Shown here one piece after another: positions 13,365 to 50,070 of a stretch of 64,000 bases of DNA. Positions within the stretch are counted from its first letter, which is position 1. The number at the start of each line of letters is the position of its first letter. Location of the stretch: positions 1,488,001 through 1,552,000 of the forward strand of contig NZ_CP048829.1 in assembly GCF_019355395.1 (NCBI RefSeq). Direction: 5' to 3'. A program made the position numbers and the translations under genes. Below the pieces are notes generated by a model that was given only the letters and a program-made list of their open reading frames with translations, was not told the origin of the DNA and did no database searches. The DNA comes from Chordicoccus furentiruminis (lineage in GTDB: Bacteria; Bacillota; Clostridia; Lachnospirales; Lachnospiraceae).

Positions 13365-13407
13365 GGTAGACGTTTTAAAGCCATTTTCAACTGAATATCC
13401 ATATTTC

Positions 13408-13490
13408 TGCTAGGGGCGCATATGCTGAGACCGGTGAATCTTCACCGGACCCTTATCACTTGAACCGGATAATACCGGCGTAAGGAAGCT
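13408..13490 (+). ncRNA. TPP riboswitch (THI element)
   Basis: The conserved thi-box blocks are present in order: AGGGGCGC, GCTGAGA, ACCCT, TGAACCGGATAATACCGGCG and TAAGGAAGC. The pyrimidine-sensor helix with CTGAGA and the pyrophosphate-sensor helix are both recognisable. It binds thiamine pyrophosphate and should switch off the downstream thiM-thiE-thiW-thiD-cytX genes when TPP is plentiful. Its expression platform is the hairpin at 13538-13561. Confidence 0.95.
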
Positions 13491-13537
13491 GAAATTTTCT
13501 GCTTTTGATTTCACACGATTTTCAGCACCTGTCCGCC

Positions 13538-43945: not shown

Positions 43946-44063
43946 ACGTTCCCTCCTTGTGGATTTGTGTGCAGATGCCCGAATAATAAGCATCTGCGTC
44001 ATCGGACTGCTATTCAAACAGGGATGAAAGGCTTTTCAGCCTCTTTTCCTGCTGTCTGCACGC

Positions 44064-44107
44064 AAAAAGGCACCCCCTCTCAGAGTGATTCTGAAAAGGA
44101 GTGCCTT
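44064..44107 (-). terminator. Terminator after lysS
   Basis: Stem AAGGCAC(T)CC with GGGGTGCCTT (44098-44107 with 44067-44076) is followed on the minus strand by a T-run, about 55 bp past the lysS stop. Confidence 0.75.
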
Positions 44108-44163
44108 GAAGGTTTTTGGAACTGGGATGTGTGTCAGGTTTTCCGCCCGTGATTTTCCCCGGA

Positions 44164-46128
44164 TCAATATAGCTTTGCGCCGGCCGGGATGTGGTTGTCC
44201 ACCATCAGAAGATGGAGCTCTTCCTCGCCGTTTCTCTCGTTCACCGCGGACAGGAGCATGCCGCAGGAGTCGATCCCCATCATGGCTCTCGGCGGGAGAT
44301 TCGTGATGGCGATCAGGGTCTTTCCGACCAGTTCTTCCGGCTCGTAATAGGCGTGAATACCGCTTAATATCACGCGATCCGTGCCCGTACCGTCATCCAG
44401 AACGAACTTTAAGAGCTTCTTACTCTTCGGAACAGCCGAGCATTCCTTGACCTTCACCGCCCGGAAATCAGACTTGCTGAAGGTGTCGAAATCCACGAAA
44501 TCCTGGAACAGCGGCTCGATCTTTACACCGGTAAAATCGATCTTTTCGTTCGGGGTAAAGAACCCGGATGCTTCAGAAACAGCCTCGGAACTCTTCTCTT
44601 CGCCGGCTTTTCCGCCCTCTTGTGCTTCATTGTTTTCAGACTTGAGGGTCTTCATTGTCGGGAAGAGCAGCACGTCGCGAATTGTCTCCGCTCCGGTCAG
44701 CAGCATGCACATCCGGTCGATGCCGTAGCCGATGCCGCCCGTCGGAGGCATGCCGATCTCCAGCGCGTTGAGGAAGTCCTCGTCAGTGTGATTAGCCTCC
44801 TCGTCACCCTGAGCCAGCAGCTCCTCCTGCGCGCGGAAGCGCTCCCGCTGATCGATCGGATCGTTCAGCTCGGAGTAGGCGTTACACATCTCCCAGCCGT
44901 TGACATACATCTCGAAACGGAGTACCTTGCCCGGATGCTCCGGATCCTTCTTGGTGAGCGGGGAAATTTCGATCGGGTGTCCGGTGATGAAGGTCGGCTG
45001 AATCAGATGCTCCTCCACGAACGCGTCGAAGAACAGATTCAGGATATCGCCGACCGCGTGGCGGTCCTCATACTCCACGTTGTGCGCTCTGGCAGCTGCA
45101 CGCGCTTCCTCCACCGTGTGAATCTGATCGAAGTCAACGCCGCTGTACTGCTTCACCGCCTCTGTCATCGTCATTCTCGCGAACGGCTTTCCAAGGTCGA
45201 TCTCATTTCCCTTGTAGACAATCTTCGTCGTGCCGTTGACCTCCTGGCAGACATGACGGTACATGTCCTCCGTCAGATCCATCATGCCGTTATAATCGGT
45301 GTAGGCCTGATAGAGTTCCATCAGCGTGAACTCCGGATTGTGCTTCATGTCGAGGCCTTCGTTCCGGAAAACGCGGCCGATCTCATAAACCCGCTCAAGA
45401 CCGCCGACGATCAGGCGCTTCAGATACAGCTCCAGCGAGATCCGGAGCTTCTTGTCCTCATCCAGCGCGTTGAAGTGGGTGACGAACGGACGCGCCGCCG
45501 CGCCGCCGGCGTTGTCCACCAGCATCGGCGTCTCCACCTCGATGAAATCCCGGGCGTCCAGATAACGGCGGATCGAAGCGATAATCTTCGACCTCTTGAT
45601 GAACACCGTCCTGACCTCCGGATTCATGATCAGGTCCACATAGCGCTGACGGTAGCGGATATCCGTATCCGTCAGGCCGTGAAACTTCTCCGGAAGAATC
45701 TGCAGCGATTTCGAAAGCAATGTGACGGAAGCGGCGTGAACGGAAATCTCGCCCATCTTCGTCGTGAAGACGCGGCCTTTCACGCCGACAAGGTCGCCGA
45801 CATCCAGGTGCTTGAATTTCGCGTACGCCTCGTCTCCCAGGTCGTCGCGGGAGACATAGATCTGAATCTGGCCGTCACGGTCCTGCACATGTCCGAAGCT
45901 GGCCTTGCCCATCACACGCTTCGACATCAGGCGGCCCGCGATGGAAACCTCCTGATTCTCGTAGTCGGCATAGTGTTCCTTAATCTGCCGGCTGTGCGCG
46001 TTCTGGTCATAGGTCACGATTTCGTAGGGATTCTCCCCCGCGTCAATCAGCGTCTGCAGCTTCTCGCGGCGCACTTTGCGCAGCTGATTCAGATCCTGGG
46101 GTTTGCTGTCCTGCATTCTTCCCGGCAT
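44164..46128 (-). CDS. lysS: Lysine--tRNA ligase with C-terminal tRNA-binding domain
   Basis: The product has 654 residues, about 150 more than a standard class II LysRS. The N-terminal OB-fold (VSIAGRLMSKRVMGKASFGH) is at about residues 60-165. The core has motif 2 (YEIGRVFRNEGLDMKHNPEF) and motif 3 (GIGYGIDRMCMLLTGAETIR). After a Glu/Ser-rich linker (about 510-535) a Trbp111/EMAP-like domain (DFDTFSKSDFRAVKVKECSA to the C terminus) follows, of the kind found at the end of MetRS. It should increase tRNA affinity. The gene lies 29 bp after greA and is probably cotranscribed. The 522-residue antisense ORF is a shadow. Confidence 0.96.
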   Translation of the reverse strand: MPGRMQDSKPQDLNQLRKVRREKLQTLIDAGENPYEIVTYDQNAHSRQIKEHYADYENQEVSIAGRLMSKRVMGKASFGHVQDRDGQIQIYVSRDDLGDEAYAKFKHLDVGDLVGVKGRVFTTKMGEISVHAASVTLLSKSLQILPEKFHGLTDTDIRYRQRYVDLIMNPEVRTVFIKRSKIIASIRRYLDARDFIEVETPMLVDNAGGAAARPFVTHFNALDEDKKLRISLELYLKRLIVGGLERVYEIGRVFRNEGLDMKHNPEFTLMELYQAYTDYNGMMDLTEDMYRHVCQEVNGTTKIVYKGNEIDLGKPFARMTMTEAVKQYSGVDFDQIHTVEEARAAARAHNVEYEDRHAVGDILNLFFDAFVEEHLIQPTFITGHPIEISPLTKKDPEHPGKVLRFEMYVNGWEMCNAYSELNDPIDQRERFRAQEELLAQGDEEANHTDEDFLNALEIGMPPTGGIGYGIDRMCMLLTGAETIRDVLLFPTMKTLKSENNEAQEGGKAGEEKSSEAVSEASGFFTPNEKIDFTGVKIEPLFQDFVDFDTFSKSDFRAVKVKECSAVPKSKKLLKFVLDDGTGTDRVILSGIHAYYEPEELVGKTLIAITNLPPRAMMGIDSCGMLLSAVNERNGEEELHLLMVDNHIPAGAKLY

Positions 46129-46157
46129 TCTCTTCCGTCCTTCCTCGTCTGCTTCTG

Positions 46158-46652
46158 TCAGCTTCTTGTAATCTCCAGAATCTTATAGGAATCGGTGTCG
46201 TCGCCGACCTCGACCTGAACCACATCGCCGACCTTCTGGCCGATCAGCGCGTGTCCCACCGGCGATTCATTGGAAATTTTGCCCTGCAGCGGGCTCGCCT
46301 CCGTCGAACCGACGATGCTGAACCAGTTCTCCTCATTATACGTCATATCGAGGATCCGGACACGACAGCCGATATTGACCTTATCCGTGCCGCCTTCCTC
46401 CTCATCGACGACCTCCGCGTTCTTCAGAATGCCCTCGATTTCCTCGATCCGGGCCTGGATATCGCGCTGCTCGTCCTTCGCTGCGTCGTACTCCGCGTTC
46501 TCCGAAAGATCGCCCTGCTCGCGGGCTTCTCCGATTTTTTTGGAGATCTCCTGCATTTTATTGACCTTGAGATCGTTCAGCTCATCCTCAAGCTTCTTCA
46601 GCCCGGCGCGGGTGAGAATATTTTTCTTCGAAGACAATGTTTCTTCCGCCAT
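46158..46652 (-). CDS. greA: Transcription elongation factor GreA
   Basis: The 164-residue factor rescues backtracked RNA polymerase by stimulating transcript cleavage. Its N-terminal coiled coil (LTRAGLKKLEDELNDLKVNK to GDLSENAEYDAAKDEQRDIQ) carries the acidic tip residues (D/E in SENAEYDAAK), and the C-terminal FKBP-like domain includes SPVGHALIGQKVGDVVQVEV. ATG 46652 follows GGAGG by 7 nt; a longer frame begins upstream without a site. It has its own consensus promoter, with a terminator hairpin between promoter and gene. Confidence 0.96.
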   Translation of the reverse strand: MAEETLSSKKNILTRAGLKKLEDELNDLKVNKMQEISKKIGEAREQGDLSENAEYDAAKDEQRDIQARIEEIEGILKNAEVVDEEEGGTDKVNIGCRVRILDMTYNEENWFSIVGSTEASPLQGKISNESPVGHALIGQKVGDVVQVEVGDDTDSYKILEITRS

Positions 46653-46707
46653 GCATGTACCTCCCTGGCACGCGGGCGCATCTTTGACGCCCTGATCTGT
46701 ATATACC

Positions 46708-46742
46708 AAAAAATCGCGTGACGAACTGTGTCTTCGTCACGC
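46708..46742 (-). terminator. Intrinsic terminator in the greA leader (also after dusB)
   Basis: A perfect 10-bp stem GCGTGACGAA/TTCGTCACGC with a 7-nt loop (46716-46742) is followed on the minus strand by GATTTTTTGG. It lies downstream of the greA promoter and about 55 nt before the greA start, and also ends transcripts coming from dusB. Confidence 0.9.
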
Positions 46743-46760
46743 CGTGCAATCAATTACCCT

Positions 46761-46789
46761 ATTATACGCATCCGATGCGTCCTTGTCAA
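46761..46789 (-). promoter_or_regulatory. Perfect-consensus promoter upstream of greA
   Basis: Minus strand TTGACA (46789-46784), 17 bp and TATAAT (46766-46761): both hexamers and the spacing are ideal. The expected start is near 46754. The spacer carries the palindrome ACGCATCGGATGCGT, and the half-motif ACGCATCCGA recurs at 46823-46832. Confidence 0.9.
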
Positions 46790-46852
46790 GAAACCTGCAG
46801 CCGCCGTTCCGGGCCGTCACGGACGCATCCGAAGCAAACTCTTCCGGCCGGA

Positions 46853-47890
46853 TCACACGGGCGCATGCACCCGTCTCTCCGCGCTGTCTGCCCAGTCGTC
46901 GAGGATCTGTTTCAGCTCCGCGAATGAGGCCGCCTGATTGATCCGCGCGCGCACCTTCGCCGAATCCGGGAAGCCGGAGGTGTACCAGGCGATATGCTTC
47001 CGCATCTGGCAGATCCCCATGTAGTCACCCTTCGCCTCCAGCTGCATCCGGGCGTGCCGCAGCATCATCGCGTATACGTCCCGGACAGCAGGCTCCGGAC
47101 CGCCGGTCAGAATCCGCCGGAAGAGCCACGGATTGCCCCGCGCGGCCCGGGCGATCATGACATAATCACAGCCGGTTTCCCGCTGCATCGCACGGGCGGC
47201 CTCCGGGGAATCCACGTCGCCGTTCCCGATCACCGGAATCGACACAGCCTCCTTCACCCGCCGGATCACGGACCAGTCCGCCTTTCCGGCGTAGTACTGC
47301 TCTCTGGTGCGGCCGTGCACCGCCACGGCGGCCGCACCGGCCGCTTCGCACCGCTTCGCGAGCTCCGGCGCGTTGACCGTATCGGCGGTGAAGCCGGCTC
47401 TCATCTTGACCGTCACCGGCCGGCTGCTGACCCGGACAAGGGCACGGACGATGGCTTCGGCCCGCGCCGGATCCCGCATCAGCGCGGAGCCTTCTCCGTT
47501 GTTGACGATCTTGGGTACCGGGCATCCCATATTGATATCCAGAAGGTCGAAGGGCTCATCCGCCAGCGCTTCCGCCGCATAGGCCATCGTCTCCGGATCC
47601 GCTCCGAAGAGCTGCATGGAAACCGGGTGCTCGTCACCGTGAATATCCAGCAGTTCCCTTGTCTTACGGTTGCCGTGCCGCACCGCGTTCGCGCTGACCA
47701 TCTCCGTCGCGACCAGCGCCGCGCCCATCTCATGACAGATCCGGCGGAACGGGCTGTCCGTCACGCCGGCCATCGGACCGAGCAGAAGGCGGTTCTGCAG
47801 CATCACATTCCCGATCCGTCCTGGTCGGGCGAGTGCATTCTCATCGGAACCAGCGGTTTCTCCACGCGCCATCGGGTTATTCGGTTCCAT
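46853..47890 (-). CDS. dusB: tRNA-dihydrouridine synthase
   Basis: The 345-residue FMN enzyme reduces uridine to dihydrouridine in the tRNA D-loop. It shows LLLGPMAGVTDSPFRRICHE at the N terminus, DINMGCPVPKIVNNGEGSAL with the catalytic Cys (about residue 100), VKMRAGF, AVHGRTREQYYAGKADW and IGNGDVDSPEAARAM. The start ATG 47890 has GGAGG 6 nt upstream and lies within the end of the preceding gene (14-bp overlap). It is the last gene of the six-gene run from pfkA; the neighbourhood dusB-greA-lysS is common in clostridia. Confidence 0.95.
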   Translation of the reverse strand: MEPNNPMARGETAGSDENALARPGRIGNVMLQNRLLLGPMAGVTDSPFRRICHEMGAALVATEMVSANAVRHGNRKTRELLDIHGDEHPVSMQLFGADPETMAYAAEALADEPFDLLDINMGCPVPKIVNNGEGSALMRDPARAEAIVRALVRVSSRPVTVKMRAGFTADTVNAPELAKRCEAAGAAAVAVHGRTREQYYAGKADWSVIRRVKEAVSIPVIGNGDVDSPEAARAMQRETGCDYVMIARAARGNPWLFRRILTGGPEPAVRDVYAMMLRHARMQLEAKGDYMGICQMRKHIAWYTSGFPDSAKVRARINQAASFAELKQILDDWADSAERRVHAPV

Positions 47891-48245
47891 CCGGTTCCTC
47901 CGGCGCCGCAAGACCGAGCTGCTCCGGCGTCATATGAAGAATGAAGATACGGTAGTAAAGGGCAAGGCTCTGCATCAGCTCCGTCTCCTCGGTCTGCATT
48001 TTCTCAATCGCGATCTTCGAGGCGAGCTCGCTGAACTCCGTGTCGCTCTGCGCGGTTCGGACCGTAAAGTGAGGCGTCCCGTCAAATCCGAAATCAATCG
48101 TGAAAATGCCGCCTACATCCTCCGTAAACCCGATGCAGAGCTTCTTCAGCGCCTGTTTCACGTCATCGGGCAGCCGGTCGAACTGCGGATTGAAAAAATA
48201 TTTATGATTGTAGTGGCTTGCGCCGCATAGTGTAATTTCTGCCAT
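47877..48245 (-). CDS. DUF6145-type small protein
   Basis: The 122-residue soluble protein reads LCGASHYNHKYFFNPQFDRL, then LCIGFTEDVGGIFTIDFGFD and ELMQSLALYYRIFI. This matches what I know of the DUF6145 family, found mainly in Lachnospiraceae next to birA and dusB; no function is established. Its ATG overlaps the birA stop and its end overlaps dusB, so it is embedded in the operon and probably expressed with it. Confidence 0.75.
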   Translation of the reverse strand: MAEITLCGASHYNHKYFFNPQFDRLPDDVKQALKKLCIGFTEDVGGIFTIDFGFDGTPHFTVRTAQSDTEFSELASKIAIEKMQTEETELMQSLALYYRIFILHMTPEQLGLAAPEEPDGTE

Positions 48246-49066
48246 CAGATATACCCGTACAATCCGCGGACGGAGACCTCACCGGCGGTCACACACCGTA
48301 TCCCGCCATCCGCGCGGCGGACCAGAAGACCGCCTCCTTTGTCGATGCCGAGGGAAACGGCCGTGTAGGGCGCGCGCGGATCCTCGATCCGCACCTCCCG
48401 GCCCCGGCTCACCAGCAGATCGTCATACGCGTTGCTGAGACCGCTCAGATCGGCCGTCCGCCTGTAAATCCTGTCATTCTCATAAAAATGCGCAAGGGCC
48501 GACGCGACCACCGCCGCCCGTGAAACAGGGCAGCCGCCGTTCTCGATGCGAAGGGAAGTGGCGACCTCGGCGATACCCGGATCAAAGGACGCGTTATTCA
48601 CATTGATTCCCGTGCCGATGATCACATAATCCAGCCTGTCCCCGTCCGCCAGCGCCTCCGTGAGAATTCCGCAGATTTTCCGGTGGCTGATCACAATATC
48701 GTTCGGCCATTTGATTCCGGCGGGAAGGCCGCAGACTTCCCGCACAGCCTGCGCGACGGACAGACCCATCACCAGCGTGAGCGACGGCGCGTGCGACGGC
48801 GCGAAATCCGGTCTCAGAAGAAAAGAGAAGTAAGCCGCTTCTCCTCCCGGGCTGACCCATGTTCTTCCGCTGCGTCCGCGCCCCGCCGTCTGCTGTTCCG
48901 CTACGGCCAGAAAGCCTTCCGGCGCGCCTTCGGCATAGTGCCGTTTGCATTCCTCATTCGTGGAGTCCACCGTCTCATAGAAATGCATCCGATAGAACCG
49001 GTCCGTTCCGTCCGACCGGAGCCGTTCCTCCAGTTCGCGCCCCCAGTCCGAATCTGCCGTCTTCAT
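48245..49066 (-). CDS. birA: Biotin--[acetyl-CoA-carboxylase] ligase, without HTH domain
   Basis: The 273-residue monofunctional ligase attaches biotin to carboxylase carrier domains. It carries [20 protein letters not shown], the biotinyl-AMP loop [40 protein letters not shown] and [10 protein letters not shown]. The N-terminal DNA-binding domain of bifunctional BirA is missing, so it should not act as a repressor. Its ATG overlaps the argF stop (ATGA). Confidence 0.94.
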
Positions 49067-50070
49067 GGCTGCCAGCCCAGCGTCGCCGCCATCACAGCCT
49101 TGATCGTATGCATCCGGTTCTCCGCCTCGTCAAATACCACGGACTGCTTCGACTCAAAAACCTCATCGGTGACTTCCATCTCGGTGATGCCGTACTTCTC
49201 CGCGATCGTCCGGCCGATCTTCGTCCCGAGATCGTGGAAGGAGGGAAGGCAGTGCAGGAAGATGGCGCCGTCGGCTGCATTTCTCATGCAGTCCATGGTG
49301 ACACGGTACGGCGTGAGGTCGTGAATCCGCTGCGACCAGACCTCATCCGGCTCGCCCATCGACACCCAGACGTCCGTGCAGAGCACATCCGCGTCCTTTG
49401 TGCCGGCGTTCACATCCTCCGTCAGCGTGACGGACCCGCCGCTCTCCTGCGCCCATTCCTCACACTGCGCCACAAGCGCGGCGTCCGGGAAGTAGGCCTT
49501 CGGCGCGCAGGCGGTGAAATGCATGCCAAGCTTCGAGCAGACGACCATGTAGGAATTGCCCATATTGTAGCGCGCATCGCCCAGATAGGTAAGGCGGACG
49601 CCCTTCAGCCGTCCGAGATGCTCGCGGATCGTCAGCATATCGGCCAGCATCTGCGTCGGATGGAACTCATTGGTAAGGCCGTTCCAGACCGGCACGCCGG
49701 CGTTCTTTGCCAGTTCCTCGACGACGGACTGGCCGAAGCCGCGGTACTCGATCCCCTCGAACATCCTTCCCAGCACCCGCGCGGTGTCCTCGATGCTCTC
49801 CTTCTTCCCGATCTGGGAGCCGGTCGGGTCAAGATAGGTCGTCCCCATCCCCAGATCATGGGCCGCCACCTCAAAGGCGCAGCGGGTCCGGGTGCTGGTC
49901 TTCTCGAAGATCAGCGCCACATTCCGGCCTTTAAGCGAATCGACGCTCTCATGATGCTTCTTTCTGTCCTTCAGAAACGAGGCGAGATCCAGAAGATTCA
50001 CGATCTCCTTCGCCGTAAAATCCTTCAGTGTCAGAAAATCCCTTCCGCGCAAACTGTCCAGTATCTGCAT
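49063..50070 (-). CDS. argF: Ornithine carbamoyltransferase
   Basis: The 335-residue enzyme makes citrulline from ornithine and carbamoyl phosphate. The carbamoyl-phosphate loop is [15 protein letters not shown] (about residues 53-67), followed by [20 protein letters not shown] and the catalytic Cys loop [13 protein letters not shown] (about 270). ATG 50070 follows GGAGAG; the upstream in-frame start lies inside trmH and is unlikely. Arginine synthesis or the catabolic arc pathway are both possible; no other arg gene is near. Confidence 0.95.

Follow-up and report, generated by a model that had tools for sequence, protein, structure and literature searches.

The window, by which we mean the whole 64,000-nt stretch of DNA that was analysed, carries on its minus strand the gene for the transcription elongation factor GreA (greA, 164 aa, 46158..46652; NF001263 and TIGR01462 above cut-off), with the ATG at 46652 and a ribosome-binding site GGGAGG, recognised by eye, at 46660..46665. 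On the same strand, and after a gap of 29 nt, follows lysS (44164..46128; NCBIfam), which encodes a lysine--tRNA ligase with a C-terminal tRNA-binding domain and likely lies on the same transcript as greA. The C-terminal domain is of the MetG type (residues ~540-652), with TIGR00399 slightly below its cut-off. Upstream of greA lies the co-directional gene dusB (46853..47911, minus strand; NCBIfam), the stop codon of which is 63 nt ahead of the greA -35 box. Elsewhere in the window, a TPP riboswitch was found at 13402-13503 on the plus strand (72.8 bits).

Between dusB and greA, a SigA-type promoter of the form TTGACA-17-TATAAT (46789-46761, minus strand) agrees with the consensus at 12/12 positions, the -35 box being at 46789-46784 and the -10 box, after a spacer of 17 nt, at 46766-46761. 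Judging from the -10 box, which lies 7 nt upstream, transcription is predicted to start at 46754, within 1-2 nt. The greA promoter is one of 26 perfect promoters in the genome (16-18 nt spacers), compared with 3 for a reversed-pattern control. In a promoter scan of 44000-50000, no further promoter-like site was found between the hairpin described below and greA, and polymerases should therefore have to get past that hairpin for greA to be expressed. Most of the promoter spacer is occupied by a perfect 15-nt palindrome (46780-46766, minus strand), one half of which, GGATGCGT, recurs 57 nt upstream at 46830-46823. The possibility that this palindrome is a regulon operator was rejected for lack of evidence: it has no second exact copy in the genome, and the single site with one mismatch falls, by eye, within a coding region, at its start.

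Directly behind the promoter, a hairpin at 46742-46716 consists of a perfect 10-bp stem with 6 G-C pairs (5' arm 46733..46742, 3' arm 46716..46725, both on the minus strand and supported by scan, fold and covariation in the genus) and a 7-nt loop (46732-46726). It is immediately followed by GATTTTTTGG, which includes a T6 run at 46713-46708 (minus strand). Relative to the predicted start, the hairpin occupies +13 to +39 and the greA AUG is at +103. The T6 run is the predicted end of a ~47-nt RNA, as judged from the sequence and from T enrichment in 18 leaders, and it ends ~47 nt from the predicted start and 55 nt upstream of the greA start codon. Promoter, 10-bp hairpin and a T-run ahead of the greA ribosome-binding site had all been described in the first-pass annotation, and all were confirmed in the sequence, with the start at 46754 predicted from the -10 box.

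For the predicted RNA from +1 to +48, the best fold is the hairpin alone, at -17.1 kcal/mol, as compared with -9.8 kcal/mol for shuffled RNA (z -3.1; 2/200 shuffles equally good). Ahead of the stem there are only 12 nt, counted by eye from the predicted start and dependent on it, another start changing the count; this would probably leave no room for a classical antiterminator. Within the genome, the exact stem core, with 3-12 nt allowed for the loop, has no second occurrence. An RNA model built from the genus matched this genome at greA with E 6e-10 and had no other match below E 0.1 among the 144 of 1457 first-look candidates that were scored; one of three weaker matches, at E 0.14 to 0.59, is the opposite strand of the greA hairpin. 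By eye, no similar leader was seen in the stretch adjoining a GreA-like paralogue at G000:C1:1275830.

How often such an arrangement stands behind a perfect promoter was gauged with a control set of 56 perfect promoters from three genomes, namely the 26 of this genome and 30 from two relatives (31 listed, one without a locus; spacers of 17-18 nt in G024 and G012, and of 16-18 nt in G000). L357 and L369, with one perfect promoter in each, are truncated by the ends of their contigs. At 4/56 promoters, which are both greA promoters and 2/54 others, a hairpin with a T-run starts no more than 60 nt downstream. By the stem rule alone, 6/56 promoters pass, two of them at greA (4/54 others), so that a stem on its own is not rare after a perfect promoter. 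Both of the non-greA promoters with hairpin and T-run precede genes for ribosomal protein L13, identified by Pfam in L358 and by its closely similar translation in L132. At these two loci (L132, G000:C1:338243-338272; L358, G024:C42:84419-84448), the perfect promoter is followed immediately by a GCGAC hairpin, with a T-run that is clear in L358 and weak in L132, and then by the L13 gene. Neither hairpin was matched in Rfam up to E 1. In many bacteria, the leaders of ribosomal-protein genes are subject to regulation.

The leader hairpin within the genus

Among 42 genomes of the genus, greA was found at E 1e-30 or better in 30 (14/18 of the best assemblies), and the 12 genomes with no greA at this level were left out of the counts. 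Under a rule that requires a stem of 7 bp or more and a stem start no later than +20, with the expectation taken from dinucleotide shuffles, 18 of the 29 distinct leaders in the genus carry a hairpin, compared with 1.03 expected, as do 4 of 78 leaders from outside the genus, compared with 0.48 expected. The outside leaders comprise 73 from the genome collection, mostly titled Lachnospiraceae, plus five that represent other families in the order; most keep a near-consensus promoter and are without the hairpin. Not counted on either side were L033, L034, L083 and L100, which are copies of genus contigs, the duplicates L018 and L091, and L082 and L090, which have weak promoters. Two further hairpins were added by eye, in L005 (13-nt loop) and L012 (one mismatch), and together with the duplicate L018 they bring the total to 21/30 genus leaders.

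In the relatives, the stem starts at +6 to +17 from the predicted start. Eight of the 30 genus leaders (L020-L023, L026, L027, L029 and L127) lack such a hairpin here, and in L008 a similar hairpin is displaced far downstream, so that greA can evidently do without it. In the GreA tree, the hairpin-bearing leaders make up two adjacent groups within the genus (20/22 rows; labels set by hand); since the genus fork is not resolved, the tree does not establish a single origin of these leaders. Beyond greA, R1 matches in relatives were found at G006:C174 (E 6e-5) and G035:C97 (E 7e-4), along with weaker ones, and the R1 match L296 is not positioned before greA.

In many of the genus leaders the stem reads GCGTGACG/CGTCACGC, and compensatory forms include GCGCGGCG/CGCCGCGC, GCGTGGCG/CGCCACGC and GCGTGCTG/CAGCACGC. 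Covariation was assessed in an alignment of 16 of the 21 hairpin-bearing genus leaders, from which L016-L018, with their different, shorter stem, and L014 and L128, which nearly duplicate L013 and L006, had been removed. Here 98.4% of the stem cells were paired and 10 cells were changed on both sides; each of these values was reached in 0/500 shuffles and in none of the slid controls, where at most 1 pair and 2 cells were changed on both sides. Two other measures were 3/8 pairs changed on both sides (29/500 shuffles as high) and 8 further pair types (15/500 shuffles as high). The covariation argues strongly, if not absolutely, for a conserved RNA hairpin, given that related sequences can exceed such shuffles. 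Within the genus, good conservation is confined to the stem, whereas the loop and the 5' tail are variable.

The letters behind the stem are also biased. In 18 leaders, near-copies included and L008 and L012 set aside because the rule found no stem there, the 9 nt after the stem contain a mean of 5.06 T, compared with 1.92 later in the same leader, and the T count after the stem is above the leader's own mean in 18/18. Runs of at least 5 consecutive T were seen by eye in 10 of the 21 hairpin-bearing genus leaders (the window and two near-copies included), the others having a mixed tail. The T-run is therefore conserved less well than the hairpin, and with 11/21 tails mixed, the proposal in the first-pass annotation that most transcripts should stop here is unequally plausible across the genus leaders.

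The fact that the stem is kept despite a poor T-run, for example in L007, L013, L014, L015 and L016-L018, could also mean that the hairpin serves chiefly to stabilise the 5' end of the greA mRNA or to pause the polymerase, such that the T-run is secondary and release is rare. A stem that starts so close to the predicted start would suit such a role. However, T is enriched right behind the stem in every leader tested, and in the window a stem at +13 would leave a free 5' end of 12 nt, which should be poor for end protection. We regard this as an unlikely account of the hairpin's main function; in the species with a weak T-run, a pause or mRNA-protection role is possible, since the stem persists there.

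Promoter, hairpin and the upstream gene

If the hairpin is an intrinsic terminator, as we prefer to read it, it could still belong to the transcription unit upstream, as the terminator of dusB that has come to stand after the greA promoter by chance. In our scan, no other terminator-like site was found between dusB and the greA promoter, and the hairpin would also stop dusB read-through. The order of the elements in relatives bears on this point. In the genus, a terminator-like hairpin starts no more than 60 nt after the predicted start in 18/29 leaders and lies in the 150 nt before the -35 box in 3/29. Outside the genus the corresponding counts are 2/78 and 3/78, and in a survey of the class they are 9/98 and 1/98; the order counts left out 2 and 11 weak promoters, plus duplicates. 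The order of promoter and then terminator, for which a comparison of relatives had been proposed, thus recurs in the genus, and the three genus leaders with a hairpin before the promoter have it as an additional one; a shift of the hairpin to the upstream side of the promoter was not seen among these relatives.

The hairpin also stays close behind the promoter though the upstream genes of the relatives differ. Among these upstream genes are those for a flavoprotein (L009), a methyltransferase (L010), a beta-propeller protein (L019), a SpoU methylase (L124) and a MIP channel (L025). The hairpin is also retained in L005, L016, L017 and L018, where the first gene found on the upstream side is divergent from greA; according to Pfam, these divergent genes encode a family 9 glycosidase, a cupin/HTH protein and DUF285/LRR proteins. 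In these leaders the hairpin is unlikely to serve as the terminator of an upstream gene read in the greA direction, even if the gaps of ~100 to 550 nt to the divergent genes have room for a small unseen gene. L005 is the strongest of these cases because it has a T5 run, whereas L016-L018 are close relatives of each other with weak tails. In E. coli, greA is likewise divergent from its upstream gene. With other or divergent genes upstream in the relatives, the suggestion that the hairpin merely ends dusB transcripts is disfavoured, and we take it to be very unlikely.

Relation to GraL and a proposed mechanism

An early terminator in the greA leader, which is what we take the hairpin to be, is known from E. 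coli. According to PMC6829880, about two thirds of greA transcripts stop at the GraL terminator, and in vivo GreA with intact cleavage function acts via the leader to lower greA expression, an effect that was not reproduced in vitro; the same paper places the E. coli hairpin at +19 to +48 and the AUG at +150. With the same script that was used for the window, E. coli greA gave a hairpin at ~+17 to +45 followed by T7, with the start estimated from a weak promoter match, as against +13 to +39 in the window. The GraL-like layout proposed in the first-pass annotation therefore holds: the gene is the same, and in both cases the promoter is followed by a terminator-like hairpin within 50 nt and then by a longer leader before the start codon. 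The two differ in that E. coli has two overlapping promoters, one of them SigmaE-dependent, whereas a single SigA-type promoter was seen by scan in the window, and in that GreA dependence and action in trans are known for E. coli only.

The Rfam family RF01769, the Enterobacteria greA leader, is likewise a cis-regulatory greA leader with a terminator at its end. As a positive control, it matches E. coli greA at 127.5 bits; it had no match to the window up to E 10 and none up to E 0.5 in the 20 loci scanned. As far as Rfam can tell, then, the sequence is unrelated to the E. coli leader, as had been supposed. Two low-scoring Rfam matches, far below their gathering scores, were taken as chance.

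In 2010, Naville and Gautheret (PMC2965389) predicted attenuators of the greA/rnk type, some of which precede clostridial greA genes, and an early greA terminator is for that reason of a kind already known. A clear antiterminator is reported for each of those attenuators, whereas in the window there are only 12 nt ahead of the stem. The stem found here, its covariation and the GCACTG stem described below are not named in the literature searched, including sources consulted in part, which is no proof of absence; on greA, the part of PMC7438776 consulted contains nothing, and the word is absent from PMC11109978.

GraL is reported to act in trans on nudE (PMC6829880), and a GraL-like layout might suggest the same here. 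That the predicted short RNA is made chiefly for such action is very unlikely, in view of a loop and 5' tail that vary in the genus while the stem alone is well conserved.

We consider it probable that the hairpin is a promoter-proximal intrinsic terminator that throttles greA, and with it probably lysS, in cis, in a layout like that of E. coli GraL. The sequences show the anatomy of the site, its recurring order in the genus, the covariation and the T enrichment; termination at the site, its strength and the role of GreA as the signal are inferred. The greA(-lysS) unit would start at the consensus SigA promoter and meet the predicted intrinsic terminator ~40-47 nt downstream, where many or most polymerases would release the ~47-nt leader RNA and the remainder would read through into greA and lysS. 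The combination of a strong promoter with a leaky stop could result in a steady, modest output, the level of which would be tunable in cis. If E. coli GraL is a guide, active GreA or a partner factor may increase termination and thereby restrict the supply of GreA. Since a classical antiterminator would probably have no room, control, if any, would come from the polymerase itself or from a protein, for which the Gre factors, NusA, NusG or Rho are possible candidates.

Leader hairpins in other Clostridia

The class survey covered 109 leaders from 205 matched genomes, made up of 29 of the best-scoring loci and 80 picked down the list. The promoter score was at least 11.5 of 12.5 in 95/109 of them. 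After removal of 14 weak promoters and 27 short leaders, 68 were testable, and in 26 of these a hairpin with 6 bp or more begins no later than +45, compared with 4.1 expected. A fixed stem, GCACTG/CAGTGC, follows the greA promoter in 15/109 leaders from ten clostridial families, starting at +5 to +35 in 14 (L194, L196, L197, L205, L207, L212, L213, L218, L225, L254, L255, L256, L258 and L259) and at +96 in L195; the tail behind it is rich in U but interrupted. Because its core letters are invariant, this is sequence conservation and not proof of an RNA fold, and in the covariation test 71/500 shuffles were as high. A slightly longer GCACTG pattern had 17 sites in 12 of these genomes, 8 at greA and 9 elsewhere, and a reversed control had 0. 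The 14 of the 15 GCACTG leaders that were scanned had no match in Rfam up to E 0.5. R2 matches were found in 91/147 genomes, most of them weaker, and the R2 match L318 is not positioned before greA. We propose the GCACTG hairpin as a candidate new leader motif.

A tentative extension of these findings, which we hold possible but doubtful, is that a terminator or pause hairpin right after a consensus promoter is a recurring greA device, realised by unrelated hairpins in enterobacteria (GraL), in the genus (the GCGTGACG stem) and across ten further clostridial families (the GCACTG stem). A stop or pause in the first 50 nt would let the cell read Gre activity and set its own level. If this is true, early termination of greA would be a device that returns with different sequences rather than an enterobacterial oddity, and the unsolved mechanism of GraL could be tested by comparing unrelated leaders, in which the shared features (promoter distance, hairpin and U-rich tail) would be the ones that matter. 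It would also tie the supply of lysS to the same valve in this genome.

A separate motif, RCATATATTATC, is conserved in 24/109 greA leaders of the class, for example in L203, L216, L256 and L258; it lies 43-240 nt upstream of greA, and in several leaders it is preceded, by eye, by GAATAAA. It resembles a sporulation sigma-type promoter, which would presumably bypass the hairpin upstream of it.
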